In this document: piece by piece, positions 7,304 to 31,789 of the stretch
Layout of the letters: the number at the start of each line of letters is the position of its first letter
How positions within the stretch are numbered: position 1 is the first letter of the stretch
Origin: a virus
IMG/VR virus record: IMGVR_UViG_3300042520_001441
Coordinates: 1 to 31,789 of that record
DNA length: 31,789 bases
Reading direction: 5' to 3' (one strand)
Position numbers and translations under genes: made by a program
Notes under the pieces: generated by a model
The model's database searches: none
What the model was told of the DNA's origin: nothing
The model's input: only the letters and a program-made list of their open reading frames with translations

Positions 7304-7324
7304 ACTAACATTATTTAATTAAAG

Positions 7325-7351: not shown

Positions 7352-7371
7352 GAACTTTAAAAAATAAAAAT

Positions 7372-8142: not shown

Positions 8143-8145
8143 GAC

Positions 8146-14472: not shown

Positions 14473-14498
14473 TTAATTAATTCGTGAAACAAGAAAAT

Positions 14499-16921: not shown

Positions 16922-17295
16922 TTTGGTATATTTTATTTATATTAGTAGTACATTGGTTTGCGGATTTTATTTTACAGACCCATCACATGAGCACTAGAAA
17001 AAGTAGCAGTAACTACTATCTTACATTACACGTATCTGTATATACATTTGCAACAATTGTTTTATGGGCTTTTGTTTTTCCTTTTACATCTATTCATGTT
17101 ACTAGTTTAGGTATTTGGACATCATTTACTTCGATATTTGCTAGTCATTGGGTTACAGATTATTTTACGAGTAGATTAACTAGTAAATTATACAAAGAAG
17201 AAAAGTATCATAACTTTTTTGTTGTGATTGGATTAGACCAAGTGCTGCATTACACACAATTATTATTAACATTTAATTATTTATTACAATTATGA
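16918..17295 (+). CDS. DUF3307 membrane protein
   Basis: 125 aa with four hydrophobic segments. DUF3307 hallmarks: VHWFADFILQTHHMS at the N-terminus, LHVSVYTF in the middle, SHWVTDYFTSRLTSKLY, and FFVVIGLDQVLHYTQLL at the end. Conserved His and Asp residues within membrane segments suggest metal or proton chemistry, but the family has no known function. Overlaps of 4 nt on both sides place it in an operon with YqeY and the phosphoesterase. Confidence 0.85.
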   Translation: MIWYILFILVVHWFADFILQTHHMSTRKSSSNYYLTLHVSVYTFATIVLWAFVFPFTSIHVTSLGIWTSFTSIFASHWVTDYFTSRLTSKLYKEEKYHNFFVVIGLDQVLHYTQLLLTFNYLLQL

Positions 17296-17888: not shown

Positions 17889-17900
17889 AATTAAATTAAA

Positions 17901-19229
17901 ATGGGAAGTAAAAAGAAAGTTAAAGAGGTTGAAATTTCATTAGATGAAATTATAAAAATGACGAAAAGACGTAATCCATTATTGGGGGAAATTGATATTA
18001 ATTTACCACCTCGTGGGTTTAATATTTCTGATTTAGAATCTGATGATGATGAAGATGATGACGATGATGATAACACGTACACTAGTCTTTCATTAGAAAG
18101 TACATTTGTTGAAATGGCGTTGATAAATAGTTATCTATATGATTGTTTTAAACGAAAACAAAAAGATGTTACAGTTACATCATATGGTTCAACAGATTCT
18201 TTAGGTAGACTATATTTGAATGGAAGTTTTGATAATACTGCTTCTTTTTGGTATGAATGTAATATGCCAGATAATGATAATAAATTCTTTTTTCAAACAA
18301 AAAGTTTTGTTGATAATAGAAATGAAGTACAAGTGCAGCTTCACATTACAATTCAAAATGGAGTGTCAAACGACAAGTTACATGAAATCATTGAGAAAAT
18401 TAAACATCTTTCGTTTAATAACTCAGAATACAAAGGTAAATGTATCAAAGTTAAGTTAAGAGATGGTAGATTTAAAGGTATTGAAATAATTGATATCGAA
18501 GAGTCATCAAATGAATTAATTTTGAATGATATTCAAATGAAATTTATTGAACATTTTATCTCACGTGTAAAGAGAGGTGGGAACGCTAGATACTTGTTAA
18601 ATGGAGAACCAGGAACGGGTAAGACAGAATCTATACGTGAAATAGCTAGAAAATTGATACCTAATGTAACATTTGTTATTCCAGAATTTCTTTCAACAAA
18701 TGATTTGACCATGATTATGGAAGGTTGTGAAATTTTTGATAACGCTGTAATCATTATGGATGACATCGATTTATTCTTAGGTTCACGTGATAATGGAAGT
18801 TACACATCATTGTTAGGCCAATTCTTATCATTCTTTGATGGTGTTAAGAAACGTAAAATTAGTTTATTAGCATCAACAAATGACAAAGGGTTGGTTGATA
18901 AAGCTGCCGAAAGACCAGGTCGTTTTAACTTTACATTAGATTATAGTTTCTTAGATGAAGACCAAATAATTAAAGTTTGTAACATTCATTTACCAGAACA
19001 ATGGAGAGTTAAAGAAGTGTATGATGCACTTACTGAGAATATAAATGGTAAAAAACCAAACATCACTGGTGCATTTATTGCTAACTTATCTGATAATATT
19101 AAAGAAATGTCTGAAGATGATGAAAAATGGTCATTATCCGATACTGTTTCGTTAATCAAAGAATCTTATAAAGGATTCTACTCAAGCCAAGTTGAGAAAG
19201 AAAAATCAACCATGGGGTTTATTAGATAA
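17901..19229 (+). CDS. AAA+ ATPase
   Basis: 442 aa. The N-terminal part (1-200) has a basic start, an acidic run (SDDDEDDDDDDN, about 48-60), and a mixed alpha-beta domain that I do not recognise. The AAA+ module follows: Walker A LLNGEPGTGKTES (about 234), Walker B VIIMDDIDLFLG (about 283), sensor 1 LLASTNDKG, and arginine finger/sensor region ERPGRFNFTLDYSF. The C-terminal lid is helical. It looks like a classical-clade ATPase (FtsH/BCS1-like) without a protease domain. A remodelling role in replication or assembly is possible. It ends at a strong terminator. Confidence 0.88.
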   Translation: MGSKKKVKEVEISLDEIIKMTKRRNPLLGEIDINLPPRGFNISDLESDDDEDDDDDDNTYTSLSLESTFVEMALINSYLYDCFKRKQKDVTVTSYGSTDSLGRLYLNGSFDNTASFWYECNMPDNDNKFFFQTKSFVDNRNEVQVQLHITIQNGVSNDKLHEIIEKIKHLSFNNSEYKGKCIKVKLRDGRFKGIEIIDIEESSNELILNDIQMKFIEHFISRVKRGGNARYLLNGEPGTGKTESIREIARKLIPNVTFVIPEFLSTNDLTMIMEGCEIFDNAVIIMDDIDLFLGSRDNGSYTSLLGQFLSFFDGVKKRKISLLASTNDKGLVDKAAERPGRFNFTLDYSFLDEDQIIKVCNIHLPEQWRVKEVYDALTENINGKKPNITGAFIANLSDNIKEMSEDDEKWSLSDTVSLIKESYKGFYSSQVEKEKSTMGFIR

Positions 19230-19234
19230 AAAAG

Positions 19235-19268
19235 AATCCGAATAAGTTGCTTATTCGGATTTTCTTTT
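19235..19268 (+). terminator. 12-bp terminator after the AAA+ gene
   Basis: AATCCGAATAAG pairs with CTTATTCGGATT around the loop TTG, followed by TTCTTTTG. The TTG loop doubles as the -33 box of the next promoter. Confidence 0.85.
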
Positions 19269-19277
19269 GTACATTTG
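19247..19277 (+). promoter_or_regulatory. Promoter of the NAD+ operon
   Basis: TTG at 19247-19249 (the terminator loop), 20-nt gap, TACATTTG at 19270-19277; ATG at 19295. It drives the tightly packed genes from 19295 to about 23479. Confidence 0.75.
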
Positions 19278-19294
19278 TATTATAAAATTAAAAT

Positions 19295-20284
19295 ATGGAA
19301 GCAAAATCAAATATTAACCCATCCGATTATGAAATCGGTGTAGTGGTTGCTAGATTCCAAGTGCATAAATTGCATGAAGGACAAAGAAATTTACTTAACA
19401 TGGTTTATAAAAACCACAAGAAAGTAATTATATTTTTAGGTGTTTCAGTAATATCTGGAACTAAGAATAATCCATTAGACTTTGCATCACGCAAAGCAAT
19501 GATACAAGAAGCTTATCCTAAAGCAGTTGTATTACCACTTAAAGACAATCGCTCAGATGCTAAATGGTCACAAGTGCTTGATGCTGAAATCAAAACACCT
19601 TATGGTGATTTATCAGCGGTATTGTATGGTAGTCGTGACTCTTTTATTCCTTATTATAGTGGTAAAAATCCAGTAATTGAATACACAACAGATGTATTTT
19701 ATTCTGGTACTGAAGTGCGTAAAGAAGTGTCAAGAGAAATATTGGCATCAGAAGACTTTAGAGCTGGTGTAATCCACGCAACTTATGCTGCTAGACCAGT
19801 AACATATCCAACAGTAGATATCACCGTATACAACGACAAAGGACAAATCCTTATGGCTAAAAAACCAAACGAAGAGTTTTATCGTTTTATTGGTGGGTTT
19901 GTTGATAGAACTGATGAGTCTTGGGAACAAGCAGCTAAACGTGAGTTTAAAGAAGAAACTGGTGGAAACGCTGAAATTGACGATATTAGATATGTTTGTA
20001 GTGCTGCTATAAATGATTGGCGTTATGGTAAAACAGAGTCTGGTATTATGACAACACTTTTCATTGGTAAGTTCTTATGGGGACGTATTGAACCATCTGA
20101 TGATATTGCATCATTGCATTGGATAAACCCATCTGACGTTTATAGTAGTGAAATCATGCCAGAACACCAAGAGTTATTTGAATCTTTGACACGTTTTTTA
20201 CATAGAACTGAATTAATCAGTAAAAACACTGGTGAAGGTAAAATAAAAGAAGCAAAAGCTAAATACGGAGAAAGTATCGCATGA
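19295..20284 (+). CDS. nadM: NMN adenylyltransferase-Nudix bifunctional protein
   Basis: 329 aa, two domains. Residues about 8-180: nucleotidyltransferase, with VVVARFQVHKLHEGQ (HxGH-like, but Gln in place of the second His) and YSGTEVRKEV (SxTxxR). This makes NAD+ from NMN and ATP. Residues about 190-310: Nudix hydrolase, with GGFVDRTDESWEQAAKREF then KEETGG, the REx(x)EE core intact and one extra residue before it. Nudix partners of this enzyme usually cleave ADP-ribose. The order matches known bifunctional NadM-type proteins. It overlaps the SLOG gene by 4 nt and lies just before NadV, so it completes a two-step NAD+ route. The HxGQ substitution may affect activity. Confidence 0.9.
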   Translation: MEAKSNINPSDYEIGVVVARFQVHKLHEGQRNLLNMVYKNHKKVIIFLGVSVISGTKNNPLDFASRKAMIQEAYPKAVVLPLKDNRSDAKWSQVLDAEIKTPYGDLSAVLYGSRDSFIPYYSGKNPVIEYTTDVFYSGTEVRKEVSREILASEDFRAGVIHATYAARPVTYPTVDITVYNDKGQILMAKKPNEEFYRFIGGFVDRTDESWEQAAKREFKEETGGNAEIDDIRYVCSAAINDWRYGKTESGIMTTLFIGKFLWGRIEPSDDIASLHWINPSDVYSSEIMPEHQELFESLTRFLHRTELISKNTGEGKIKEAKAKYGESIA

Positions 20285-20619
20285 AATTAGCAGTAATTGG
20301 TAGCAGAGGTTTTAATGACTATGAGTTGGTTAAAGAAACTTTAAAACATCATACAATAACATTATTGGTTAGTGGTGGTGCGAAAGGTGCTGATTCATTG
20401 GGTGAAAGATATGCAAATGAAAATAACATTCAAACACTTATCTTTAAACCAGATTGGAAGAAACATGGACCAGCAGCTGGTCCACTTAGAAATACCGATA
20501 TTGTTAACAATGCCGATACTATCATAGCATTTTGGGATGGTGAAAGTAAAGGAACCAAAGATAGTATCACAAAAGCTGAAAAATTAGGAAAAAATATAAT
20601 AATAATAAATACAAAATAG
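20281..20619 (+). CDS. SLOG-domain protein (DUF2493-like)
   Basis: 112 aa. Rossmann-like start MKLAVIGSRGFNDYELV, then VSGGAKGADSLGERYA (the GGAxGAD nucleotide-binding turn), FKPDWKKHGPAAGPLRN, and AFWDGESKGTKDSI. This is the YspA/DUF2493 branch of the SLOG superfamily, known to bind nucleotides or their derivatives and proposed as a sensor or processor of NAD+/ADP-ribose products (SLOG class described by Aravind and colleagues). It overlaps nadM by 4 nt, so the ligand probably belongs to the NAD+ pathway. The exact ligand is unknown. Confidence 0.88.
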   Translation: MKLAVIGSRGFNDYELVKETLKHHTITLLVSGGAKGADSLGERYANENNIQTLIFKPDWKKHGPAAGPLRNTDIVNNADTIIAFWDGESKGTKDSITKAEKLGKNIIIINTK

Positions 20620-20620
20620 T

Positions 20621-22240
20621 ATGCAATCAGAAACTAGAAGATTAAAAAGAAGTTTAGCACTTAAAGAAGTGATTAAAACTAGATTGGCAGAAGCAATTAA
20701 AAACAAAGATTGGTCTTCAATCGAAACATTAGAAGGTCTTATCACAAAAGTATTGGATAAACCTAACAACCTTGTACTTATGGGTGATGCGTATAAATAC
20801 TCACACCATAAATTCTATGAGGATAACACAACAACAGTTTATTCATACATGGAGTCACGTGGTGGTCGTTTCCAAGAAACTGTATGGTATGGTCTTGAAA
20901 TGTTCATTAAAGAATATTTAGAAGGTGTTGCAATCACACAAGAAGAATTAGATGAAGCATATGAGTACTTAGGTACTAAACATGGTGTATTTGGTCGTGA
21001 TGATGTGTTTGATAAATCTAAATTCCAATACATTATAGATGTTCATGGTGGTAAACTACCAGTACGTATTAAAGCAGTACAAGAAGGTACAGTTGTAGGT
21101 GTTAAAAACGTTCTTATGACTATTGAGAACACTGACCCTAATTGTTATTGGTTAACTAACTTTTTAGAAACAATCATGATGCAATTATGGTATCCAATTA
21201 CGGTTGCAACATTGTCACGTGAAGTTAAGAAAATTGTTATCGAATACTACCAAAAAACATCTGCGTTACCACAACACATTATGGATACAGTTATTGAGTT
21301 CGTATTAAACGATTTCGGTTTTAGAGGTGTATCATCAGTACAATCAGCTGGTTACGGTGGTTCAGCACACTTAATTAATTTTATGGGTTCTGACACAACA
21401 GTTGCATCAAAACGTATCTGTGAATACTATAATACTGACACAATATTTGGTTTATCAGTTCCAGCAACTGAACACTCTATCATGACAATGAAAGGTGAAG
21501 AAGGTGAAGTTGAAATGATGAGAAGAACACTTGAGAAATACCCTACTGGAATTGTAGCGTGTGTATCTGACTCTTACCACATCTTACGTGCATGTTCTGA
21601 GAAATGGGGAACTGAGTTACGTGATTTGATTTTATCAAGACCATCAGAACCTGGAAATCAACTGGTTATTCGTCCAGATAGTGGTCACGTTGTCAACACA
21701 TTAAAAGAAGTGTTTGCTATATTGTTTGATAAATTTGGTTACACTGTGAATGATAAAGGGTTCAAATTGTTACCACCACAAGTTCGTGTAATTCAAGGTG
21801 ATGGTGTAAACATCAATTCAATTCGTGAGATTTACGAAGAATTATACAGATTAGGTATTTCTGCTGAGAACATCGTGTTTGGTATGGGTGGTAAATTGTT
21901 ACAAGCTGATATTAATAGAGATACACAAAACTTTGCAACTAAAGCATGTTTCGCTGTCGTAAATGGTGAACAACGTGATTTGGTTAAATCACCAACAGAA
22001 GTTGATGAAAATGGTGAATTAAAACCATCATTCAAGAAATCTAAACAAGGTCGTTTGAAGTTGGTTAAACACTATACAAATGGTCAATACTACACTGTAA
22101 CATCATTGGAAGATGGATATGAATCTGCACATGATGAATTGAGAACTATTTTTGAAGATGGTAAACTATTGGTTGAAACGAAGTTTGAAGATATTCGTAG
22201 TAGAGCTAAAATTTTTAAATTAAACGTAGAATTAGTATAA
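20621..22240 (+). CDS. nadV: Nicotinamide phosphoribosyltransferase
   Basis: 539 aa. Converts nicotinamide and PRPP to NMN, the entry step of the NAD+ salvage encoded here. After an N-terminal helical extension of about 45 residues come VLMGDAYKYSHHKFYE, TVYSYMESRGGRF, GFRGVSSVQSAGYGGSAHLINF (PRPP/nicotinamide site region) and VIRPDSGHVVNTLKEVF (the conserved RPDSG loop), then VIQGDGVN and GMGGKLLQ. All match the NAMPT/NadV family. The length is slightly above the usual 460-490 because of the extension. It is preceded by nadM-Nudix and SLOG, and its stop overlaps the NADAR start by 1 nt. Confidence 0.95.
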   Translation: MQSETRRLKRSLALKEVIKTRLAEAIKNKDWSSIETLEGLITKVLDKPNNLVLMGDAYKYSHHKFYEDNTTTVYSYMESRGGRFQETVWYGLEMFIKEYLEGVAITQEELDEAYEYLGTKHGVFGRDDVFDKSKFQYIIDVHGGKLPVRIKAVQEGTVVGVKNVLMTIENTDPNCYWLTNFLETIMMQLWYPITVATLSREVKKIVIEYYQKTSALPQHIMDTVIEFVLNDFGFRGVSSVQSAGYGGSAHLINFMGSDTTVASKRICEYYNTDTIFGLSVPATEHSIMTMKGEEGEVEMMRRTLEKYPTGIVACVSDSYHILRACSEKWGTELRDLILSRPSEPGNQLVIRPDSGHVVNTLKEVFAILFDKFGYTVNDKGFKLLPPQVRVIQGDGVNINSIREIYEELYRLGISAENIVFGMGGKLLQADINRDTQNFATKACFAVVNGEQRDLVKSPTEVDENGELKPSFKKSKQGRLKLVKHYTNGQYYTVTSLEDGYESAHDELRTIFEDGKLLVETKFEDIRSRAKIFKLNVELV

Positions 22241-22728
22241 TGACAACAGATAAATTTATATTCTTTTGGGGAGGGACATACAGTCAATGGTGTCCTTCCA
22301 CATTTGAAATCGGAGGTGTAAAATATAATTGCTGCGAGCAATATATGATGGCACAAAAAGCATTATTATTCAATGACATAGAAAGTCACAAGATGATTAT
22401 GTATGCTACTAGTCCACGTGACCAAAAAGCATTTGGACGTAGAGTAAAAGGGTTTGACAAAGACAAATGGGAAGCTGTTTGTAGAGAAATCGTTTACGAT
22501 GCAAACTATGCCAAGTTTACTCAAAACCCATCTATGATGGCTGAGTTACTGGCAACTGGTGATAGAGAAATTGTAGAAGCTAGTCCAGAGGATAAAATCT
22601 GGGGAATTGGATTGCATGAAAACGATGCTAGAGTTCACGACAAGTCAAAATGGCAAGGAACCAATTGGTTAGGTGAAGCTATCATGCAAGTAAGAGAAAA
22701 ATTAAGAACTATTAAAATAGAAATGTAA
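22240..22728 (+). CDS. NADAR-family N-glycosidase (YbiA-like)
   Basis: 162 aa. Family marks in order: FFWGGTYSQWCPSTFEIGG, YNCCEQYMMAQKALLF (with the catalytic-site Glu of the CEQxMM motif), ATSPRDQKAFGRRVKGFD, and IWGIGLHENDARVHD followed by GTNWLGEAIMQVREKL. NADAR proteins cleave N-glycosidic bonds in NAD+/ADP-ribose-type or riboflavin-intermediate molecules and can reverse guanine ADP-ribosylation. It is encoded between NadV and the macro-domain protein with 1-nt overlaps, so it very likely works on ADP-ribose chemistry in this operon. Confidence 0.92.
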   Translation: MTTDKFIFFWGGTYSQWCPSTFEIGGVKYNCCEQYMMAQKALLFNDIESHKMIMYATSPRDQKAFGRRVKGFDKDKWEAVCREIVYDANYAKFTQNPSMMAELLATGDREIVEASPEDKIWGIGLHENDARVHDKSKWQGTNWLGEAIMQVREKLRTIKIEM

Positions 22729-23186
22729 TGATTAGATACGTAGAAGGCGATTTAGTGAAAATGGCCAAAGAAGGAGAATTCGATGTAATAGCACACGGTT
22801 GTAACTGTTTCTGTGCTATGGGTGCTGGTATTGCACCACAAATTAAAAATGCTTTTCCAGAAGCATATGAGGCTGATTGTGCAACAGTGGCTGGTGATGA
22901 ATCAAAAATGGGTACTATTACTCATACGGTTAATTCTACACCGATAGTTGTAAACATTTATTCTCAATATGACACCAAAGGTAGACGTAGTGGTAACATG
23001 GATTTAGACTATGATGCTTTACGTTCTGGTTTAAAAGAGATGAAAGCTAAATTTTCTGGTAAAACAATTGGGTTACCGATGATTGGTGCTGGATTGGCTG
23101 GTGGTGATTGGGATATCATTGAGAAAATAATTGAAGAAGAAATGATTGGTGAGTATGTAACAATCGTTCAATACGTTCCATGGTAA
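22728..23186 (+). CDS. Macro-domain ADP-ribose phosphatase/hydrolase
   Basis: 152 aa, one compact macro domain. Motifs: MIRYVEGDLVKMA, DVIAHGCNCFCAMGAGIAPQ (the N-C-F-C and G-A-G-I-A pattern of Poa1-like ADP-ribose-1''-phosphate phosphatases), FPEAYEADC, VVNIYSQYD, and LPMIGAGLAGGDWDII (phosphate loop). It would remove ADP-ribose or its phosphate from RNA ends, proteins or free metabolites. The start overlaps the NADAR stop by 1 nt and its stop overlaps the next ORF by 7 nt. Confidence 0.92.
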   Translation: MIRYVEGDLVKMAKEGEFDVIAHGCNCFCAMGAGIAPQIKNAFPEAYEADCATVAGDESKMGTITHTVNSTPIVVNIYSQYDTKGRRSGNMDLDYDALRSGLKEMKAKFSGKTIGLPMIGAGLAGGDWDIIEKIIEEEMIGEYVTIVQYVPW

Positions 23187-23479
23187 TAATCTTTGTTAAT
23201 AATCCAATGCAAGATGCAAACACTCTTGAACCGCAATTAATTGATGGTAGAGTAGTTTATTGGACTGTGGTTAGTGAGTGTATGAAATCAAATGAAACAT
23301 TCAAAGAATGGTTGGTTAGAAAGGAAGAAAGAATCAATACACATCCTAATTATAGTTCCATTGAAGGTCTTTTAATCTATGACATGCAACCAATTGTGTC
23401 TACCCCTTACGAAGGGGTGACACATGGTGGTATGATTATTAGGTATGCTTTTTTAAAGAAAAAAGAAGAAAACATTTGA
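23180..23479 (+). CDS. Hypothetical protein, tandem paralogue 1
   Basis: 99 aa. A shared pattern with the next gene is visible: EWLVRKEERINTHPNY versus EWMNRKNEMLLNDPRY, then EGLLIYDMQPIVSTPYE versus EGVILYDVESYFDSPYK, then HGGMIIRYAFL versus HSGLILKYKYL. The two form a tandem pair of diverged paralogues. No outside family recognised. The ATG overlaps the macro-domain stop by 7 nt; it is the last gene of the first NAD+ operon. Confidence 0.68.
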   Translation: MVIIFVNNPMQDANTLEPQLIDGRVVYWTVVSECMKSNETFKEWLVRKEERINTHPNYSSIEGLLIYDMQPIVSTPYEGVTHGGMIIRYAFLKKKEENI

Positions 23480-23505
23480 TTTTTAATTTATTTTTAGTAC
23501 ATTTG
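23475..23505 (+). promoter_or_regulatory. Near-leaderless promoter of paralogue 2
   Basis: TTTG at 23475-23478, 19-nt gap, TACATTTG at 23498-23505. The ATG starts 4 nt after the -7 box, as at 2863, implying a leaderless mRNA. Confidence 0.68.
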
Positions 23506-23509
23506 TAAC

Positions 23510-23767
23510 ATGAAAATAGTTTTTGAAAATTTAGAAGAAGCGTTAAAAATACCATCTTCAGCATACACAATTAGAACTGAAACTCTTAAAGTTGAAGAGA
23601 CTTTATTAGAGTGGATGAATAGAAAGAATGAAATGTTATTAAATGACCCTAGATACGCTAACGTTGAAGGTGTTATTTTATATGACGTTGAGTCGTATTT
23701 TGATTCACCATACAAAGATAAGGTACATAGTGGGTTAATCCTAAAATATAAGTATTTAAGAAAATGA
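23510..23767 (+). CDS. Hypothetical protein, tandem paralogue 2
   Basis: 85 aa, related to the preceding gene through its central block (EWMNRKNEMLLNDPRYANV, then EGVILYDVESYFDSPYK) and a similar C-terminal strand. Its N-terminus differs (MKIVFENLEEALKIP). It heads a second operon, from a promoter wedged between the paralogues, so the two copies are separately regulated. It overlaps the HAD-like gene by 4 nt. Confidence 0.68.
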   Translation: MKIVFENLEEALKIPSSAYTIRTETLKVEETLLEWMNRKNEMLLNDPRYANVEGVILYDVESYFDSPYKDKVHSGLILKYKYLRK

Positions 23768-24237
23768 AAGTAATATTTTTAGATATTGATGGAGTATTAG
23801 CAACAACATCTTGTTATGGTAAAGGAAAAAACAACAAGTGGGGTGCTTATATGTTTGACCAAAAAGCTGTTGTTTATCTCAATTTTATACTTAGTGAGAC
23901 TGGTGCTGAAATCATTTTATCATCTGATTGGCGAAATCAATATACTTTGCATGAAATGCGTGAAATTTTTTGTCATAACGGAGTGTTGAAAGGTCCGATA
24001 GGGTTTACACCATCGTTAAAAACATATAAGGGTGATAATCTTGAAGGTGGTCGTGCTGATGAAATAAATGCATGGTTAGAAATTAACGCATGGAAGAATG
24101 ATATCAAATGGGTTGCCATTGATGATTTGAATATGGATGAATGGTTGTACCCTAACTTTGTTCATTGTCCTAATGAACATGAAGGAATCAAAAAACAAAA
24201 CATAAAAGATAAAATAATACAAATATTAAATGGATAA
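23764..24237 (+). CDS. HAD-like hydrolase (phage SSDWR type)
   Basis: 157 aa. Motif I FLDIDGVLATTS (DxDGV), motif II IILSSDWRNQYTLHEM (Ser in SSDWR), and motif IV WVAIDDLNMDEW (DD) are all present, which supports phosphatase activity. The SSDWR form belongs to a HAD group common in phages and in RNA-repair-like proteins. The substrate is unknown; nucleotides or RNA ends are plausible. Overlaps of 4 and 8 nt tie it to paralogue 2 and the dCMP deaminase. Confidence 0.8.
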   Translation: MKVIFLDIDGVLATTSCYGKGKNNKWGAYMFDQKAVVYLNFILSETGAEIILSSDWRNQYTLHEMREIFCHNGVLKGPIGFTPSLKTYKGDNLEGGRADEINAWLEINAWKNDIKWVAIDDLNMDEWLYPNFVHCPNEHEGIKKQNIKDKIIQILNG

Positions 24238-24664
24238 TTGGGATAAGAAGTTCATCAAGTTGTGTCAACACATTGCTGAATGGAGCAAGGATAAAAATAA
24301 AAAAGTTGGTGCTGTAATAGTTGATAATGACAATGTAGTTATATCAATGGGTTATAATGGAATACCAAGAGGTTGTGATGATACTGAAGAGTGTCGTTAT
24401 GAAAGACCAACAAAATATTTGTTCACAGAGCATGCTGAACGAAATGCAATATACCATGCAGCAAGACATGGTGTATCATTGAAAGATTGTAAAATGTATG
24501 TAACTTTGTTCCCATGTGCTGATTGTGCAAGAGCAATGATTCAATCTGGAATAACAAAAATAATAGCACCAGAACCAAATTTAGACCACGAAGTATGGGG
24601 TGTACACTTCAAGGCTGCGATTCAAATGATGGAGGAAGCTAATATCGAAATAATTTTAATTTAA
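24230..24664 (+). CDS. dCMP deaminase
   Basis: 144 aa. Deaminates dCMP to dUMP, feeding dTMP synthesis. Zinc-site motifs: EHAERNAIYHAA (HAE, about residue 68) and TLFPCADCARAMIQ (PCxxC, about residue 94). The N-terminal DKKFIKLCQHIAEWSKD and VVISMGYNGIPRGCDD match T4 Cd-type and bacterial deaminases. Length is typical. It partners metabolically with the DHFR at 15644. It overlaps the next small gene by 1 nt. Confidence 0.94.
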   Translation: MDNWDKKFIKLCQHIAEWSKDKNKKVGAVIVDNDNVVISMGYNGIPRGCDDTEECRYERPTKYLFTEHAERNAIYHAARHGVSLKDCKMYVTLFPCADCARAMIQSGITKIIAPEPNLDHEVWGVHFKAAIQMMEEANIEIILI

Positions 24665-24840
24665 TGGAAACAGTTAAAGTAGGCTTGGCCAATGTTGGTG
24701 AAAAATTAATGCCAGTTGATATTGTCATCAAATGGATGCCAACTGATATTGTATATGCTGGTGATACAGTGTTTTTTAAAAATGAAAAGTCCTATTATTC
24801 AATGAATTATATGGACTTTATGAGAATATTTAATTTATAA
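24664..24840 (+). CDS. 58-aa hypothetical protein
   Basis: ATG overlapping the dCMP deaminase stop by 1 nt (TAATG), 58 codons to TAA, and the next gene starts 3 nt later. The protein starts METVKVGLANVGEKLM, has VIKWMPTDIVYAGDTVFF and ends DFMRIFNL. A small beta-rich fold is likely. The tight fit between two sure genes supports it. No family recognised. Confidence 0.62.
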   Translation: METVKVGLANVGEKLMPVDIVIKWMPTDIVYAGDTVFFKNEKSYYSMNYMDFMRIFNL

Positions 24841-24843
24841 AAT

Positions 24844-25287
24844 ATGAGTATAGTAAGGTCAATAAAAATTAATCATTATGAACACATGGTTAATAGAAAT
24901 TGGGATAAAACATATTGGGCGTTTGACATCCATGGTACAATCCTAAAACCAAATTACGAGTATGGAAACATACCTAAAGAGTTTTACCCATTTGCTAAAG
25001 AAACACTTCAGTTTATTAGCAAGATGGAAGATGTTGTAATGATTCTTTACACATGTTCACATCCACATGAGATTGAACAATATATTGAGTATTTCAAAGA
25101 GAATGATATTCATTTTGATTACATAAATGAAAACCCAGAGATAGCTACAAACCTAGAAGGTTATGGTAACTACGATAAAAAACCTTACATGAATGTATTA
25201 TTTGAAGACAAAGCTGGATTCGATGGTGACAGTGATTGGGATAGTGTTTTATGGTTATTAACTAGTAAAAATGGCGAGAATATCTGA
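24844..25287 (+). CDS. HAD-like protein with DxHGT motif
   Basis: 147 aa. Motif I reads WAFDIHGTILKP: the usual second Asp of DxDGT is His. Motif II region is MILYTCSHPHEIEQY, and the end is NVLFEDKAGFDGDSDW, equivalent to the acidic loop IV. The replaced general acid means it may lack normal phosphatase turnover or use a different chemistry; the DxHGT form recurs in a bacterial and phage HAD subgroup. It is the second HAD-like gene in the region. It overlaps the next gene by 17 nt. Confidence 0.78.
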   Translation: MSIVRSIKINHYEHMVNRNWDKTYWAFDIHGTILKPNYEYGNIPKEFYPFAKETLQFISKMEDVVMILYTCSHPHEIEQYIEYFKENDIHFDYINENPEIATNLEGYGNYDKKPYMNVLFEDKAGFDGDSDWDSVLWLLTSKNGENI

Positions 25288-25639
25288 CATACAAAGATAC
25301 AATAAAGGTAGAAAAGATTTAACTAGGGATAATGCCGATTTTGAAACATTAAGGTTTAAAAATGAAAATGGTGATGTTATGGTTATTAAACCACAAGAGG
25401 TTAGAGAAGTTTTACATGATTTTATTGATAGTGAGATAGGTTTTTTGGGTGATGCAATGAAAACTCAAATAAAAGAAAGATTAGAGTTCAAAATTAAACA
25501 AGTTGAAAGAACTTTAATTGAACATTTAGATGATAAAATAAATAAAATTGCAGAATCAATATTAGAAAAAACTATTGATAGAATAGCAGAAGAAGAAATA
25601 AATAGAAGGGTTTTAGAAAAAATTAAAAAATGTTTATGA
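25271..25639 (+). CDS. Coiled-coil hypothetical protein
   Basis: 122 aa. The basic N-terminus MARISDIQRYNKGRKDL is followed by a short beta stretch (GDVMVIKPQEV), then a long amphipathic helix region with alternating Glu, Lys and Ile from residue 45 to the end. It probably oligomerises through the coiled coil. It overlaps both neighbours (17 and 10 nt), so it is translationally coupled to the HAD-like and lipoprotein genes. Confidence 0.62.
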   Translation: MARISDIQRYNKGRKDLTRDNADFETLRFKNENGDVMVIKPQEVREVLHDFIDSEIGFLGDAMKTQIKERLEFKIKQVERTLIEHLDDKINKIAESILEKTIDRIAEEEINRRVLEKIKKCL

Positions 25640-25947
25640 AAAGAAGAAGAAGAATTGGTTTAATTATTTTTGCAATTGTAATTGCAATATTTTTGTTAAG
25701 TAGTTGTGCCGACACATCACATGTTAAACAATGTTTACCACCAACAGAACACACTTATGGTTTCTGGGGTGGTACATGGCATGGTATGATAACAGTTCCA
25801 TCATTTATTGGTAGTCTTATTTGGGACGATGTTGCTGTATACGCAGTAAATAATAATGGTGGATGGTATGATTTTGGATTTGTAGGTGGATTATTTTTCA
25901 TGCTAAAATTAGTTGGGATTGGTAATAAAAAAGTTAAAGAAAAATGA
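25630..25947 (+). CDS. Small phage-encoded lipoprotein
   Basis: 105 aa. A basic N-terminus (MFMKRRRR) precedes a hydrophobic stretch and the lipobox FLLSSCAD, so signal peptidase II would lipidate Cys near residue 27. The mature part has TYGFWGGTWHGMITVPS and a hydrophobic VGGLFFMLKLVGIG near the C-terminus, perhaps inserting into the membrane. Phage lipoproteins often block superinfection, which is a plausible role here. It overlaps the sirtuin gene by 4 nt. Confidence 0.72.
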   Translation: MFMKRRRRIGLIIFAIVIAIFLLSSCADTSHVKQCLPPTEHTYGFWGGTWHGMITVPSFIGSLIWDDVAVYAVNNNGGWYDFGFVGGLFFMLKLVGIGNKKVKEK

Positions 25948-26708
25948 AAAAGAAAGTAGTAGTATTTAGTGGTGCTGGATTAGATAGAGAATCTGGTATC
26001 TTAACGTTTCGTGACTCTAAAGATGGGTTATGGAACAATTATAAAGTTGATGAAGTTGCGACAAAAGAAGGATGGTCTAAAAACCGTGAAAAAGTTTTGG
26101 CGTTTTACAACGAAAGACGTAGAGAATTACCTAGTGTTGAACCAAACGATGCTCACAGAGCATTGGTGCGTTTAGAAGAAGGATATAGTGTATTAAACGT
26201 GACGCAAAACGTAACTGATTTGTTAGAACGTGCTGGTGCAAGTGATATTATTCATTTACATGGTGAGTTAACCAAAGCAAGAGGTTGCTTCCATAAATCA
26301 GAAGGTTTTGACACTAATTACATTGTTAAAGAAATTGGTTATAACGACATTAACATCGGTGATAAATGTGAACATACTGATTCACAATTAAGACCACATG
26401 TTTGTTGGTTTGGTGAATGGCCTTATGACACAGATAGAGCTTATGATGAAGTTCCATTTGCAGACATTCTTATCATTGTTGGTACAAGTTTAGAGATAAC
26501 TTATACGTTATCAATGTTAGGTCAATTAAGACATAAAGTTTTAAGTGGTGAATGTGAAGTTTATTATGTTGACCCAAATCCATCAACTCACATGGAAGCT
26601 TATGGGATTAAACCTAATTACATTAGAAAAGTTGCTAGTGAAGGGTTAAATGAATTAGTTGACGAATTATTAAAAAGAGAAGAAAATCAAAAAAATATTG
26701 CTAATTAA
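25944..26708 (+). CDS. Sirtuin (Sir2-family NAD+-dependent enzyme)
   Basis: 254 aa, class III-like (CobB/SIRT5 type). Motifs: FSGAGLDRESGILTFRD (GAG...ESG..FR), NVTQNVTDLLERAG, IHLHGELTKARG (catalytic His about residue 105), RPHVCWFGE, and VGTSLEI. The QNxD motif reads QNVT: the Asp that binds the nicotinamide amide is Thr. Two of the usual four zinc Cys positions are not obvious. NAD+-dependent deacylation, demodification or NAD+ hydrolysis are possible. It is encoded amid NAD+ synthesis and ADP-ribose genes, so it probably consumes or senses the same pool. Confidence 0.9.
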   Translation: MKKKVVVFSGAGLDRESGILTFRDSKDGLWNNYKVDEVATKEGWSKNREKVLAFYNERRRELPSVEPNDAHRALVRLEEGYSVLNVTQNVTDLLERAGASDIIHLHGELTKARGCFHKSEGFDTNYIVKEIGYNDINIGDKCEHTDSQLRPHVCWFGEWPYDTDRAYDEVPFADILIIVGTSLEITYTLSMLGQLRHKVLSGECEVYYVDPNPSTHMEAYGIKPNYIRKVASEGLNELVDELLKREENQKNIAN

Positions 26709-26728
26709 TAATTTATTTAGTATATTTG
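26698..26728 (+). promoter_or_regulatory. Promoter of the DUF3127 gene
   Basis: TTG at 26698-26700 (in the end of the sirtuin gene), 20-nt gap, TATATTTG at 26721-26728; ATG at 26751. Confidence 0.72.
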
Positions 26729-26750
26729 AATTAATAAAATAAAAATAGAT

Positions 26751-27122
26751 ATGGAATATTACACGTTTGAAGGAGTTATCAAAGAGATTTTTGATACTCA
26801 AGAATTTAAAAACAATTTCAAGAAAAGAGAAGTTGTATTAGAAACAGAAGAGGATTATCCTCAATTAATAAAATTTGAGTTTACCGATGAAAATGGTATT
26901 AACAAATTAGATGACCATGCTGCTGGTGAAAAAGTTAAGATTGCTTTCTTACTAAAAGGTAGTGAATGGCAAGGTAAATATTTTACTAATTTAAGAGGTG
27001 TTGCAATTGCTTCATCAGAAGAACCAACTTCTACTGATAAACCTAAAAAAGACACTAAGAAAGATGTTTTGTCTTCAATGACAAAAGTTAACAATAACGA
27101 AGAAGATGAATTACCATTCTAA
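26751..27122 (+). CDS. DUF3127 OB-fold protein with SSB-like tail
   Basis: 123 aa. The N-terminal 85 residues (YYTFEGVIKEIFDTQEFK, KREVVLE, GEKVKIAFLLKGSEWQGKYF, NLRGVAI) match DUF3127, an OB-like family common in Bacteroidota and their phages. A disordered Lys/Thr linker follows, and the protein ends EEDELPF, which closely resembles the acidic DDDIPF tail by which SSB recruits replication and repair proteins. I infer a single-strand-binding-like replication factor. It has its own promoter, fitting an abundant protein. Confidence 0.82.
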   Translation: MEYYTFEGVIKEIFDTQEFKNNFKKREVVLETEEDYPQLIKFEFTDENGINKLDDHAAGEKVKIAFLLKGSEWQGKYFTNLRGVAIASSEEPTSTDKPKKDTKKDVLSSMTKVNNNEEDELPF

Positions 27123-27124
27123 TC

Positions 27125-27478
27125 ATGAGTGTAGTTAAATTTGAATTGAAAGAAGAACACGTAAAGTTGTTAAAATATTTACGTTGGAGTAAATCAAAAG
27201 AACTTATTGTTAATATTTCTGATGATGAAGATTCTGTTCCATTTGGTTTTGATACTATCTATGAAGCAATAGATACAATATTAAACGGTAAACCAGAAGG
27301 GTTTGACCCATTTGAAGCAGATGATGTTATTGAATATAGTGATGAACAAAAAGCTGAATGGGATAAATTATATGATGAGTTGCCAACAGCATTAGATGTC
27401 ATATTACATAATCAATCATTTGATTTGGGGCGTTATAAGACCAAGTATCATGACAGAAACTGGAAAAAGATGAATTAA
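27125..27478 (+). CDS. Hypothetical acidic protein
   Basis: 117 aa starting 2 bp after the DUF3127 stop. It begins MSVVKFELKEEHVKLLKYL, carries acidic stretches (NISDDEDSVPFGFD and FEADDVIEYSDEQK) and ends DRNWKKMN. No family recognised. Co-transcription with the SSB-like gene suggests a replication-linked role. Its stop codon lies inside the terminator stem. Confidence 0.7.
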   Translation: MSVVKFELKEEHVKLLKYLRWSKSKELIVNISDDEDSVPFGFDTIYEAIDTILNGKPEGFDPFEADDVIEYSDEQKAEWDKLYDELPTALDVILHNQSFDLGRYKTKYHDRNWKKMN

Positions 27479-27493
27479 TTTTCATCTTTTTTT
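27464..27493 (+). terminator. Terminator overlapping stop codon and next promoter
   Basis: AAAAAGATGAA pairs with TTCATCTTTTT around TTAATT, followed by a T-run. It includes the last codons of the preceding gene, and its T-run touches the TTTG (27491-27494) of the following promoter. Confidence 0.8.
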
Positions 27494-27522
27494 GTTTATA
27501 TGAAATATTATTCATACATTTG
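27491..27522 (+). promoter_or_regulatory. Promoter of the Prs operon
   Basis: TTTG at 27491-27494, 20-nt gap, TACATTTG at 27515-27522; ATG at 27546. Confidence 0.77.
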
Positions 27523-27545
27523 TAGAAACTAAAAAATAAATAAAT

Positions 27546-27737
27546 ATGAAAAATGTAAAAAGTTACTGTATCATAAAGAAAGTGGTACAATCAAATGGGA
27601 AAACATTAAACGTGCTAATGTTAGATATTAACACTGAAGTATTGGAATTCGATAATTTACAAGATGCTGAAAAATTTGCTGCATTGATGACACAAAACTC
27701 TGACTCTGGTTGGGAATACATCGTAAAAGAAATATAA
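27546..27737 (+). CDS. Small hypothetical protein upstream of prs
   Basis: 63 aa, starting MKNVKSYCIIKKVVQSNGK, with LNVLMLDINTEVLEFDN and an end SGWEYIVKEI. A small beta-alpha fold is likely. It starts directly after the promoter and A-rich leader and ends 1 nt before prs. No family recognised. Confidence 0.65.
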   Translation: MKNVKSYCIIKKVVQSNGKTLNVLMLDINTEVLEFDNLQDAEKFAALMTQNSDSGWEYIVKEI

Positions 27738-27738
27738 T

Positions 27739-28785
27739 ATGAATCAATCGTTATTATTTACCTTAGATGGTAAAACAGAATTGGCTGAAGCCATTATTGA
27801 CTCTGCTAATTTATTTAGCACGGAACATGAAATTAGTTTAGGTTATTTAAACAAACAAAAATTCTCCGATGGTGAGTTATGTGTTGATTTCACTGACTCA
27901 GTTAGAGGTAAATCAGTGTTTTTGTTATCTAGTCCAAACACATCAGATGCAATCATCAACTTAGCATTGGCTATTGATGCTGCAAAACGTGGTGGTGCTA
28001 AAGAGATTATACCTATCTTACCATATTTCCCATATGCTAGACAAGATAAGAAAGACCAAAGCAGAGGACCAATTGGTGCTAAGGTTATGGCTGAAATTAT
28101 TGAACAACGTGGTGCAACATCAGTAATCACTTTTGATTTACACGCTGACCAGATACAAGGGTTCTTTAATATACCAGTTACACACATTGAAGGTAAGCAT
28201 GTTTTCGACAGTTACATCAACGATACTATCAAAAACTTTACTGGTGGTGAAGTTGTATTGTGTGGACCAGATGCTGGTTCTGGTAAACGTGTTAAACGTA
28301 TGCGTGACCAAATCAATAAAAGATATGGTGTTAACCTAAACATTGTCATGATTGACAAAACTAGGAAAAAAGCCAACGTGATTGATGAAATGATTATTAT
28401 TGGTGATGTTAAAGGTAAACATGTTATCATATTGGATGATATGGTTGATACTGCTGGTACGTTATGTAAAGCTGCTGAAGTATTGAAAGATGCTGGTGCG
28501 TTGACTGTAAGGGCGATAATTGCACATGGTGTGTTATCTGGGCCAGCAGTTGAACGAATTGGTGAAAGTAAATTAGCTGAATTAGTAATAAGTGATTCAT
28601 TACCAATGAAAGATGCTAAAGAATTATGTCATAAAGAATTTAATGAAACAAAATGTCATCATATTATAAAAGGGTGCGAGAAAACAACTGTTATTAGTGT
28701 AGCACAACAAATTGGGATGGGAGTTTCTGCATCAATCAATAAACTAAGCTACGAAGCATTAAAATCAATTAAAGCAGTATATTAA
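27739..28785 (+). CDS. prs: Ribose-phosphate pyrophosphokinase (PRPP synthetase)
   Basis: 348 aa. Makes PRPP from ribose 5-phosphate and ATP, the co-substrate that NadV needs. Motifs: PYFPYARQDKKDQ, ITFDLHADQIQGFF (about residue 131), CGPDAGSGKRVKRM (about 177) and VIILDDMVDTAGTLCKAAEVL, the PRPP loop (about 232). Active-site residues are present. It is about 30 residues longer than the typical enzyme; the extra length includes the C-terminal LSYEALKSIKAVY. It forms a separate operon from nadV/nadM but completes the same pathway. Confidence 0.96.
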   Translation: MNQSLLFTLDGKTELAEAIIDSANLFSTEHEISLGYLNKQKFSDGELCVDFTDSVRGKSVFLLSSPNTSDAIINLALAIDAAKRGGAKEIIPILPYFPYARQDKKDQSRGPIGAKVMAEIIEQRGATSVITFDLHADQIQGFFNIPVTHIEGKHVFDSYINDTIKNFTGGEVVLCGPDAGSGKRVKRMRDQINKRYGVNLNIVMIDKTRKKANVIDEMIIIGDVKGKHVIILDDMVDTAGTLCKAAEVLKDAGALTVRAIIAHGVLSGPAVERIGESKLAELVISDSLPMKDAKELCHKEFNETKCHHIIKGCEKTTVISVAQQIGMGVSASINKLSYEALKSIKAVY

Positions 28786-28913
28786 TGAGTAAAAATAATT
28801 TTGACAACACAACGCTATTACAAATAGCATTGGTTGGTGGTATTGTAACCCTAGCAGCATTGGGTGTGAATGGTTGGGGTTGGTTAGTTTTCGCACTAGT
28901 ATTAACATTATAA
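28785..28913 (+). CDS. 42-aa single-span membrane protein
   Basis: ATG overlapping the prs stop by 1 nt (TAATG), 42 codons to TAA. A polar N-terminus MSKNNFDNTTLLQ is followed by one long hydrophobic segment with GGIVTLAALGVNGWGWL and FALVLTL. A small inner-membrane protein; role unknown. Confidence 0.6.
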   Translation: MSKNNFDNTTLLQIALVGGIVTLAALGVNGWGWLVFALVLTL

Positions 28914-28924
28914 AAAATAAAAAT

Positions 28925-29812
28925 ATGTCACATTTCGCAGTATTAGTTATCGGTGATAACGTTGAAGAACAATTGGCTAAATACGATGAAAGCATTGAAA
29001 TGCCAAGGTATGTTAAACATACAAAAGAAGAATTGATTGTTGAAGAAAAACAATCAATTGAAGAGTATAAGAATGGTACTTATGCTCAATATTTAGCAGA
29101 CCCAGTTAAGTATGCTGAGAATGTTAATAATGAAAATCATTTGAAGTATGTATCAGAAGAGTTTCCTAAGAAATTGGAAATGAATGATGAGGAAATTTAC
29201 CAACAAGCTATCAAATACTATGAAGAAGAATATTTAGGTCCAGATGGTGAAGTATATTCAACATATAACCCAGATTCTAAATGGGATTGGTATGAAGTAG
29301 GTGGTCGTTATGCTGGTCGTATTGCAGTGAAAGATGGTGTTGAAATTGATGAACCTAATTTCTCATGGGGTTGGCAAGAAGAAGATAAAGAAAAAGTAAT
29401 TGCTGAAGGTTATAAAACTGATTCAGCATACGTTGGAGATATTGATTTCTCTAAAATGCACAGAACTGAAGAAGATTACAATGAAGCTTTGCGTTATTGG
29501 GAACTAATTGTTGAAGGTGCTAAACCTAAAAACGAAGATGAAACAAACCAAGTTAAATGGAATTGGTATAAACCAGAGTATTACACTGAAAGATACAAAG
29601 ATAAAGAAACGTATGCTAAATGTAATTCTTCATTCTCTATGTGGGCTGTTGTGAAAGATGGTGTGTGGTATGAGAAAGGTCAAATGGGTTGGTGGGCTAT
29701 GTCCAATGAAACGCATGATGAAGCTTTGGATTGGGAAATGAATTTCTATGATAGATTCATCAAAGATTTACCAGAAGATACATTAATCACAGTTGTTGAT
29801 TGTCACATTTAA
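28925..29812 (+). CDS. Conserved phage protein with SKWDWY-GGR motif
   Basis: 295 aa from ATG 28925, after an A-rich leader; the frame is open upstream to 28874, but that overlaps the preceding membrane ORF. The N-terminus MSHFAVLVIGDNVEEQL and the motif NPDSKWDWYEVGGRYAGRI (about residues 117-135), followed by FSMWAVVKDGVWYEKGQMGW, are typical of a family widespread in phages and prophages. Its function is not established. Acidic overall, without signal or membrane segments. Confidence 0.78.
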   Translation: MSHFAVLVIGDNVEEQLAKYDESIEMPRYVKHTKEELIVEEKQSIEEYKNGTYAQYLADPVKYAENVNNENHLKYVSEEFPKKLEMNDEEIYQQAIKYYEEEYLGPDGEVYSTYNPDSKWDWYEVGGRYAGRIAVKDGVEIDEPNFSWGWQEEDKEKVIAEGYKTDSAYVGDIDFSKMHRTEEDYNEALRYWELIVEGAKPKNEDETNQVKWNWYKPEYYTERYKDKETYAKCNSSFSMWAVVKDGVWYEKGQMGWWAMSNETHDEALDWEMNFYDRFIKDLPEDTLITVVDCHI

Positions 29813-29824
29813 AAAAAAAACATT

Positions 29825-30055
29825 ATGAGTGAAGAAAAAGAATATAAAGACGAAACATTCGTTTTGAGTGCTGCACAACACAAAAAGTACGATGAATGGA
29901 GGAAAGAAAAGAATGAAAAGGATGGGGAAGTATATGTAGGTGCCATTGGTGGTGCCTACTCCTTTTGTTTCACACCAACTGGATTGGGTGATATGGTAGT
30001 TGTTAAGTGTGCTGATGGTACACAATTAGATTTAACAGAATACGAATATTGGTGA
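29825..30055 (+). CDS. Small hypothetical protein
   Basis: 76 aa, starting MSEEKEYKDETFVLS, with a Lys/Glu-rich helix (KYDEWRKEKNEKDGE) and a beta-rich second half (GAIGGAYSFCFTPTGLGD, VVVKCADG). The length and the GGAYSF-FTPTGLG pattern recall short phage proteins, but I cannot name a family. It ends 2 nt before the sigma-factor ATG. Confidence 0.66.
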   Translation: MSEEKEYKDETFVLSAAQHKKYDEWRKEKNEKDGEVYVGAIGGAYSFCFTPTGLGDMVVVKCADGTQLDLTEYEYW

Positions 30056-30057
30056 TT

Positions 30058-30600
30058 ATGAATGATAATGAATTATTTTGTGCTTGTGTAAAAGGTAATA
30101 CACAAGCACAAGGTTTATTATATGAAAAATATAATAAACATCTATTTAACATTTGTTTAAGATACCTAGGTAATGAATATGACGCTGATGATTGTCTTCA
30201 AGATGGGTTTTTACATATTTTAAACAAGTTAACTAAAATGGATGCCACAACTAATATTAAATTAAATGGTTGGTTAAGTGTGGTAATGAAAAACTATACA
30301 TTAGATGTGTTAAGAAAGAAAAAGAATGAAATGTCATTTGAATCAGTTGAATATTTTACAACTGAAGTAGTTGATGAAGAGGAGTTTATGGTTTCTATTT
30401 CGCAAAATACATTATTAGAATTAATAAATAATTTATCACCACAATTTAAGAAAGTGTTTGAAATGTATGCTATTGATGAATTACCACATAAAGATATTGC
30501 AAAAGAATTAGGTATTAGTGAGAGTACATCTAAGACTAATTACCATAGAGCAAGAAAAAAATTAAAAAAAGCTTTATTTCATTTGGATATTATAAATTAA
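30058..30600 (+). CDS. ECF-type RNA polymerase sigma factor
   Basis: 180 aa from ATG 30058; an in-frame TTG at 30049 is less likely. Sigma region 2: AQGLLYEKYNKHLFNICLRY, then DADDCLQDGFLHILNKL and LNGWLSVVMKNYTLDVLRKK (-10 recognition side). Region 4: LINNLSPQFKKVFEMYAID then HKDIAKELGISESTSKTNYH and RARKKLKKAL (-35 helix-turn-helix). No anti-sigma gene is adjacent. It may redirect host RNA polymerase to late or middle phage promoters; the TAnnTTTG promoters in this window look like host primary-sigma sites, so its own targets probably lie elsewhere. Confidence 0.9.
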   Translation: MNDNELFCACVKGNTQAQGLLYEKYNKHLFNICLRYLGNEYDADDCLQDGFLHILNKLTKMDATTNIKLNGWLSVVMKNYTLDVLRKKKNEMSFESVEYFTTEVVDEEEFMVSISQNTLLELINNLSPQFKKVFEMYAIDELPHKDIAKELGISESTSKTNYHRARKKLKKALFHLDIIN

Positions 30601-30629
30601 ATTAGTATTTTAGGGTAAAATATTTAATT

Positions 30630-31789
30630 ATGAAATTTAAAGAATTAACGGATGAAGTAATCGAAAAAGCAAGACAAATCTACACTGATAAAAGTATCAG
30701 TTGGGACAATAGAATGTCACTGTTAACAAATTTACTTGGTCGTTCAGAAAGAACTGTTCGCAAATGGTGTTCAGAGAAACTAGGGTTTAAAGAAAAAGCT
30801 GAAGTAGAACCAGAACAATACACCCAAGCAAAAAGCAAAGTGTTTGATAAAGAAAAGAAAAGATTTATCATTACATGGGCCCAAAACAACACTCCAATAC
30901 ATGCTAAATTTCTTAAAAACATTGAGAAATATGCTGAATTTATTGAAGCTGACATTCATGTTATTGCTGGACGATATAAAAACCCTACTAGTGTATGGTC
31001 TGCTGAACAAGAAAATGAAGAGTTTTGGGATGAAAGAGTTGTAAAATACTTAGATGCTAACAGACATGATATACACAAATATTTGTCTATATTATCTGAT
31101 ATTAAAATACCACCTACAGCGGTTAACCCTATGACTGGTATGCAAGCATTAAGTGGTGTCAATTCATGTGTTTTTGGTAGCCCTAAAGTGCAAATGGAGA
31201 TGATTCCAGTGTTAGATGGTAACGCACCTAAAATGATGTTAACAACTGGTGCTGTAACGATGCAAAACTATACTGATTCAAAATCTGGTAAAGTTGGTGA
31301 GTTTCACCACACATTTGGTTTTGTTGTTGTTGAAATCAAAGATGATGAAATATTCTTTGTTAGACAAGTAACTGCTGATGATAAGAATGGTAACTTTTCA
31401 GACTTATATTATAGAGTTGAAAATGGATTAATAAAACCTATTAAAACAATGGAAGCCATCATATTAGGTGATTTACATTGTGGTCATCATGACATAGATG
31501 TGTTGAACACAACAATTAATATGATGTATAAAATATTACCTAAACACGTAATATTACATGACGTATTTGATGGAGATTCTATTAGTCATCACCAAATGAA
31601 AGACCCATTTGTTCAATATGGTAAAGAAGTGCAAGGTACTAATGATTTAGGTAAGGAAATCGATGATATGATGGTTATATTAGATAACTTTAAAGAGTTT
31701 GAAAATGTAGTTATTGTTCGTTCAAACCATGATGACTTTGTTGACCGATGGTTAAAGAATGAAGATTGGAAAAAACAACCTACATTTAA
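30630..31789 (+). CDS. Phosphoesterase, 3'-truncated by window end
   Basis: 386 codons are visible and the frame is still open at the last base. Residues about 25-50 resemble a helix-turn-helix (NLLGRSERTVRKWCSEKLG). A charged middle region follows. Near residue 275 a metallophosphoesterase core begins: ILGDLHCGHHD (GDxH), then VILHDVFDGDSISHH and VVIVRSNHDDFVDRWL (NHD). This DNA-binding plus phosphoesterase layout resembles large phage enzymes such as T5 A1-like proteins, an analogy from motifs only. The C-terminal part lies outside the window. Confidence 0.75.
   Translation, partial: MKFKELTDEVIEKARQIYTDKSISWDNRMSLLTNLLGRSERTVRKWCSEKLGFKEKAEVEPEQYTQAKSKVFDKEKKRFIITWAQNNTPIHAKFLKNIEKYAEFIEADIHVIAGRYKNPTSVWSAEQENEEFWDERVVKYLDANRHDIHKYLSILSDIKIPPTAVNPMTGMQALSGVNSCVFGSPKVQMEMIPVLDGNAPKMMLTTGAVTMQNYTDSKSGKVGEFHHTFGFVVVEIKDDEIFFVRQVTADDKNGNFSDLYYRVENGLIKPIKTMEAIILGDLHCGHHDIDVLNTTINMMYKILPKHVILHDVFDGDSISHHQMKDPFVQYGKEVQGTNDLGKEIDDMMVILDNFKEFENVVIVRSNHDDFVDRWLKNEDWKKQPTF

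Follow-up and report, generated by a model that had tools for sequence, protein, structure and literature searches.

A reciprocal exchange of Ser/Thr and Asp between two motifs of a phage sirtuin encoded among NAD+ salvage genes

A SIR2-family gene in an NAD+ salvage neighbourhood

The DNA analysed here (the window) is a stretch of 31,789 nucleotides, positions 1 to 31,789 of IMG/VR virus record IMGVR_UViG_3300042520_001441. Over 13,846 bases it matches an IMG/VR contig of 205,931 bases with 99.94% identity and is therefore a piece of a large phage; its part from 17000 to 31789 has no DNA-level match among named phages. The sirtuin gene lies on the + strand at 25944–26708 as an intact open reading frame (ORF), with an ATG at 25944, 254 codons and a stop through 26708, and its start overlaps the stop of the preceding ORF (25630–25947). 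A Pfam profile search matches its 254-residue product, P0001, to SIR2 (PF02146) with an E-value of 8.5e-37 (127.3 bits, against a curated cut-off of 24), and PHROG 2162 ‘Sir2' matches it at 9.6e-43. An earlier note, made from the letters of the window, had placed a sirtuin gene here with the correct ORF, coordinates and strand, and both the profile match and the fold confirm the family.

E. coli CobB is the top relative of P0001 in the protein data bank both by sequence (3.7e-40) and by structure. The AlphaFold2 model (pLDDT 93, pTM 0.91) shows a Rossmann sirtuin fold that superimposes on CobB with a Z value of 28.7 (r.m.s.d. value of 2.0–2.1 Å calculated over 228–229 residues), and at 137.7 bits P0001 misses the cut-off of the NCBIfam CobB equivalog NF040867 (320 bits). 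With CobB (PDB 1s5p, 6rxj) and class III, SIRT5-type enzymes it shares the fold, the frame of the GAG loop, the Gln-Asn pair, the catalytic His, the GTS loop and YxxR, the acyl-recognition motif of class III (CobB/SIRT5) deacylases. Q88-N89 (26205–26210) and H106 (26259–26261), the catalytic His position of HxHGE, are invariant in an alignment of 81 rows, and Y55xxR58 (26106–26117) is nearly invariant. P0001 differs from CobB in reading GAGLD for GAGIS and QNVT for QNID, and in having none of the CxxC pairs of which zinc-ribbon sirtuins carry two: its cysteines are found only at 115, 142, 154 and 204, and its canonical Bacteroidota-type relatives likewise lack this zinc site. The closest cellular sirtuins are mostly those of Bacteroidota, ordinary deacylase-like proteins. 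Two other assemblies carry the gene with 100% identity and further ones with 99, 96 and 91%, which rules out an assembly or sequencing error behind QNVT and GAGLD. The dN/dS ratio is 0.09–0.21 in all eight related pairs tested, and the sirtuin is under strong purifying selection.

The sirtuin gene stands among genes of NAD+ and ADP-ribose metabolism, all on the + strand. These encode an NMN adenylyltransferase–Nudix protein (NadM-like; 19295–20284), of which the Nudix part exceeds the Pfam cut-off and the NMNAT part matches weakly, below the NCBIfam cut-offs; a nicotinamide phosphoribosyltransferase (NAMPT/NadV; 20621–22240; PF18127 2.4e-26, PF04095 4.5e-41); a NADAR domain protein (22240–22728; PF08719 7.2e-54); a macro domain protein (22728–23186; PF01661 2.3e-9), whose gene is 2.8 kb upstream of the sirtuin with other genes between; a HAD ‘Swiss army knife' phosphatase (HAD_SAK; 23764–24237; PF18143 1.5e-26); and, downstream, a PRPP synthetase identified by profile match (27739–28785), which supplies substrate for NAMPT. 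Genes for a YspA/SLOG protein and a deaminase are also found around P0001. For comparison, the macrodomain partner of macrodomain-linked sirtuins (SirTM) is encoded by an adjacent gene. The earlier note had found a sirtuin beside NAD+ synthesis genes puzzling, as an active enzyme would consume NAD+. It is less so when the products of both are considered: a sirtuin releases nicotinamide and NAMPT consumes it, and the NAMPT, NMNAT–Nudix and PRPP synthetase genes can recycle the released nicotinamide to NAD+. A pairing of sirtuin and nicotinamide salvage has been noted earlier for Vibrio phages (PMC5107563).

Elsewhere in the window, three consecutive genes at 5465–8967 form a transporter-like set carried by the phage; their products are a 612-residue protein whose C-terminal part is an OmpA domain, and a permease (PF00528) and an ATPase (PF00005) of the ABC type. 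The gene at 14484–14966 encodes a hotdog thioesterase (4HBT, 4.4e-10) that may act on acyl-CoA, that at 16526–16921 a YqeY-like protein (PF09424 9.3e-17), of a kind not commonly known from phages, and that at 30049–30600 a sigma factor of the ECF type (Sigma70_r2 and r4_2).

Coupled residues at positions 14 and 91

In the alignment with CobB, the Asp of QNID falls on T91 of P0001 (Q88 N89 V90 T91; codon ACT, 26214–26216), as the earlier note had read, and the near-universal Ser of the GAG loop (GAGIS) falls on D14 (codon GAT, 25983–25985). The note's further statement that the catalytic His and the GAG and GTS loops remain holds for H106 and for GTS, not for the GAG loop, which is altered to GAGLD. 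P0001 has the SIR2 fold but departs from the family at two motif letters together, the Asp of QNxD and the Ser of GAGxS, both of which are among the letters by which sirtuins are defined. The amide of nicotinamide is bound in SIRT3 by the side chain of Asp231 and the backbone of Ile230 (PMC4164625), which agrees with the role that the note gave to the QNxD Asp. A review links Asn168, Asp170 and Ser88 of SIRT2 in catalysis (PMC11476333); by residue count, Ser88 is predicted to be the Ser of GAGxS. Position 14 corresponds, by range offset, to S24 of Af1 Sir2, a residue studied as S24A in 1m2h.

The two positions vary in an all-or-none manner. In a set of 231 distinct, informative sirtuins from phages and bacteria, which are related to each other and so do not amount to 231 independent tests, 200 carry Ser14/Asp91, 31 carry Asp14 with Ser or Thr at 91, and none is mixed; all 31 exchanged sequences are viral. 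The set comprises 136 distinct sirtuin ORFs, which remain from 142 distinct ORFs at 249 loci after removal of one 41-residue fragment and of five ORFs without the first site (106 Ser14/Asp91, 24 Asp14/Ser91, 6 Asp14/Thr91, no mixed form); the best 80 bacterial genome matches, all Ser14/Asp91; and 15 further named phages, picked from match lists to span groups, with 14 Ser/Asp and one Asp/Ser. Thr itself, the conservation of which the earlier note had proposed to check, is not conserved: among a set of 31 exchanged alignment rows, in which P0001 and the copy of its locus each count as a row, position 91 is Ser in 24 and Thr in 7. Simple loss of the QNxD Asp is ruled out, as D14 compensates in every exchanged sequence; the note's reading of a lost Asp missed this Ser-to-Asp change, and in all cases examined Asp and the hydroxyl residue have swapped positions.

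Pattern scans keyed on one site, with the other left free, returned the same pairing. A scan for GAGxD found 38 stretches, of which 30 hold a full sirtuin ORF, each with Ser or Thr at 91; the remaining eight consist of seven stretches without a sirtuin ORF and one remnant (L047). All 26 sequences from a scan for QNx[ST]D have Asp14. The scan for QNxD found at least 118 stretches; among the matches listed, 110 are Ser/Asp, four end before site 14 and four have an ORF too short to be counted. Conversion of a Ser to an Asp codon, or the reverse, takes at least two base changes. In cellular genome contigs, no stretch contains QN[VIM][ST]DL[LH]ER[AG]G, a narrow pattern that would also miss the KVP40 type; the absence of the exchange from cells is shown for this pattern and for the best 80 bacterial matches.

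Four further sites (9, 13, 85 and 94) also differ between the canonical and exchanged types. Position 85 is Ile or Val in most canonical relatives and His or Asn in exchanged ones (N85 in P0001, 26196–26198), and position 94 is His in most canonical relatives (L94 in P0001, 26223–26225). When 24,136 pairs were ranked by mutual information with average-product correction, 14–91 ranked 10 and the neighbouring 13–94 ranked 2, as expected of two touching segments. Residue 13 of P0001 (25980–25982) belongs to this second coupled set, which opposes I/V13–H94 to L13–L94 and I/V85 to H/N85. Certain phage sirtuins of the canonical type likewise have N85 and L94 (L017, L019).

The exchange has a counterpart in the sirtuin of the KVP40 group of Vibrio phages (AAQ64114.1), which combines GAGxD with Nx[S] in a phage that also carries NAMPT. 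That protein is only about 35% identical to P0001, reads T-A-N rather than T-Q-N, and its NAMPT gene lies 114 kb away. The Sir2 proteins of Vibrio phages phi-St2 and phi-Grn1 have been described (PMC5107563), and a survey of viral sirtuins by Iyer et al. 2022 put forward an RNA-repair clade (PMC9503650); the portions available of these two papers make no mention of the exchange. A literature search by title and abstract, with subscription papers mostly outside it, returned no description of a Ser/Asp exchange. A second ‘Sir2'-annotated gene follows shortly after the sirtuin of Salmonella phage 118970_sal2 (L338:804-2236).

The exchange does not track the gene neighbourhood, NAMPT being common to both types. 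Of 19 exchanged records, 11 contain NAMPT and 8 a macro domain; of 29 canonical records, 14 contain NAMPT and 11 a macro domain, which rules out the presence of either as the driver of the exchange. In records having NAMPT, it lies less than 10 kb from the sirtuin in 8 of 11 exchanged and 12 of 14 canonical cases. NADAR exceeds its cut-off in 5 of 19 exchanged and 20 of 29 canonical records, a difference that carries no weight, the exchanged contigs often being shorter fragments.

Origins of the exchange and recombination

Several origins or transfers account for the exchange. In a FastTree phylogeny of 220 rows, built without sites 14 and 91, the exchanged rows are scattered over about 10 places. 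An IQ-TREE phylogeny of 88 rows (21 exchanged), also without these sites, calls for at least nine changes, five of them forced by well-supported branches, and in five of five independent pairs on such branches sites 14 and 91 change together. A single vertical origin of the exchange was rejected over the whole protein without the two sites (AU test for a single exchanged clade, p 0.00084), but over residues 1–110, with only these two sites removed, a single clade was not rejected (p 0.34). Sites 9, 13, 85 and 94 differ by type and could draw exchanged rows together in trees. Their additional removal, a choice made after the data were seen, led to rejection of a single clade both over residues 1–145 (p 1.9e-5; 11 changes; paired changes in six of six, sign test p 0.031) and over residues 1–110 (p 0.0011; 13 changes; four of four pairs).

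Some of the changes counted in this way are transfers, and recombination is plain in certain cases. The sirtuins of L024 (Asp/Thr) and L092 (Ser/Asp) differ by two nucleotides over codons 151–245, and their first halves are about 30% different. At L008 (7011–8753), an intact sirtuin gene is separated from a 5′ remnant of a sirtuin gene by an ORF for a GIY-YIG/NUMOD3 homing endonuclease. This endonuclease is 87% identical to one encoded immediately upstream of the sirtuin gene of L009; over its first 40 residues, the L008 sirtuin agrees with the L009 sirtuin at 35 positions and with P0001 at 28. This arrangement suggests an endonuclease-driven exchange of the 5′ part of the gene. GIY-YIG domains exceed the cut-off in 23 of the 48 records examined, and their mere presence in a record is uninformative since they are so widespread. 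For another pair, L030 (Asp/Ser) and L167 (Ser/Asp), whose N-terminal halves are 93% identical, the patches around both sites 14 and 91 differ and none of the 90 nucleotides of codons 46–75 is changed, so that a single conversion tract spanning both sites fails as an explanation.

The sirtuin also stands out from its neighbours in one syntenic pair that differs in type. A phage contig (L062) has the gene order of the window, and 13 of 14 other proteins are 74–96% identical at the amino-acid level; the remaining one is 42% identical, and its top match falls at the place of another gene. The L062 sirtuin, by contrast with P0001, is canonical (S14/D91) and only 62% identical to it (73% over residues 1–110 and 54% over the rest). 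In the comparison with L008, an exchanged relative, the sirtuin, at 84% identity, has not diverged more than its neighbours, which are 66–93% identical, with one again at 42%.

The nicotinamide pocket and alternative explanations

The recurrence of an all-or-none trade suggests an active site that has been rebuilt rather than broken. The reading that we favour, and consider reasonably probable, is that P0001 is a CobB/SIRT5-like NAD+-dependent deacylase in which the nicotinamide (C) pocket has been rebuilt by reciprocal exchange and the nicotinamide set free is recycled. Positions 14 and 91 would face each other across the C pocket, presumably in direct contact, with the carboxylate normally provided by QNxD supplied by D14 of the GAGx[D] loop and the hydroxyl normally provided by GAGxS supplied by the Thr or Ser of QNx[T/S] (T91). 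The Ser–Asp pair would thereby be kept in reversed order, which would leave the enzyme able to hold the nicotinamide amide and to break the glycosidic bond. As judged from low dN/dS and invariant catalytic residues, P0001 is probably an active deacylase in which the nicotinamide-holding carboxylate has moved to the opposite loop, although Asp14 may have a role other than holding nicotinamide. The neighbouring NAMPT and NMNAT would convert the released nicotinamide back to NAD+, the PRPP for this coming from the synthetase that the phage encodes.

A rebuilt pocket may also have altered the chemistry of the enzyme. Nicotinamide might rebind more weakly, making the enzyme resistant to inhibition by it and to base exchange; an NAD analogue might be used; or the reaction might have shifted toward hydrolysis of NAD+ or ADP-ribosyl transfer. 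The exchanged residues lie at the site that holds nicotinamide (PMC4164625), positions 85 and 94 vary together with them, and CobB is inhibited by nicotinamide with a Ki of 108 uM (PMC5734772). NADase defences combined with salvage would make nicotinamide levels unusual in infected cells, and the low identity of the L062 sirtuin relative to 13 of its 14 neighbours hints at selection on the sirtuin. The exchange, however, conserves the Ser/Thr–Asp pair instead of discarding it, and leaves the genomic neighbourhood as it was, and altered chemistry is a less likely alternative. A related joint reading appears doubtful to the same degree: phage sirtuins would flip repeatedly between mirror-image Ser/Asp and Asp/Ser-Thr pockets without surviving intermediates, and the reversed pocket would be an adaptation to conflict based on NAD+, conferring for example resistance to product inhibition by nicotinamide, or to a mimic of nicotinamide or NAD, when host NADase defences fire beside phage salvage genes. 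A single origin of the exchange, or a small number of origins, followed by spread as an allele through recombination aided by homing endonucleases, with site compatibility as its only meaning, is rather unlikely. The nearly identical 3′ parts and different 5′ parts of L024 and L092, the endonuclease ORF at L008 and the AU result for the N-terminal half fit such a spread; the unchanged stretch between the two differing sites of L030 and L167 and the rejection of a single clade once co-varying sites are removed argue against it, and transfer alone leaves the absence of mixed forms unexplained.

The earlier note had raised a shift toward another reaction or a non-catalytic NAD+ binder; neither is indicated, as the Asp/hydroxyl pair is kept though exchanged. 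Replacement of a universally conserved Asp would suit a non-catalytic binder or sensor of NAD+ or ADP-ribose, but the retention of YxxR, Gln-Asn and the catalytic His under strong purifying selection, and the return of an Asp at the facing position in every instance, make this the least probable of the readings considered. Scarcely more probable is an ‘RNA-repair' sirtuin as proposed by Iyer et al. 2022, with KptA-like removal of RNA 2′-phosphates by ADP-ribosyl transfer. Most viral sirtuins were put in such a clade, with HAD_SAK linkage cited (PMC9503650); P0001 is likewise phage-borne, with a HAD_SAK gene 1.7 kb upstream, and ADP-ribose products could be handled by the neighbouring macro and NADAR proteins. 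Against this, the record of 205,931 bases from this phage yields no match to the profiles for RNA ligase (PF09414) and KptA (PF01885), and the ordinary deacylase-like character of the closest cellular sirtuins points elsewhere.

If the pocket is rebuilt as favoured here, the point of interest becomes whether its reversal alters nicotinamide inhibition. Within the NAD+ network of these phages, the sirtuin is a gene far more different than its neighbours in the one syntenic pair compared closely. The recurrent reciprocal exchange, with no mixed form in the whole set of sirtuins, amounts to a double-mutant experiment that nature has performed on the nicotinamide pocket, and makes the role of the Asp directly testable in nicotinamide binding, cleavage and base exchange. 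It also indicates that calls of an ‘inactive sirtuin' based on motifs can be wrong.
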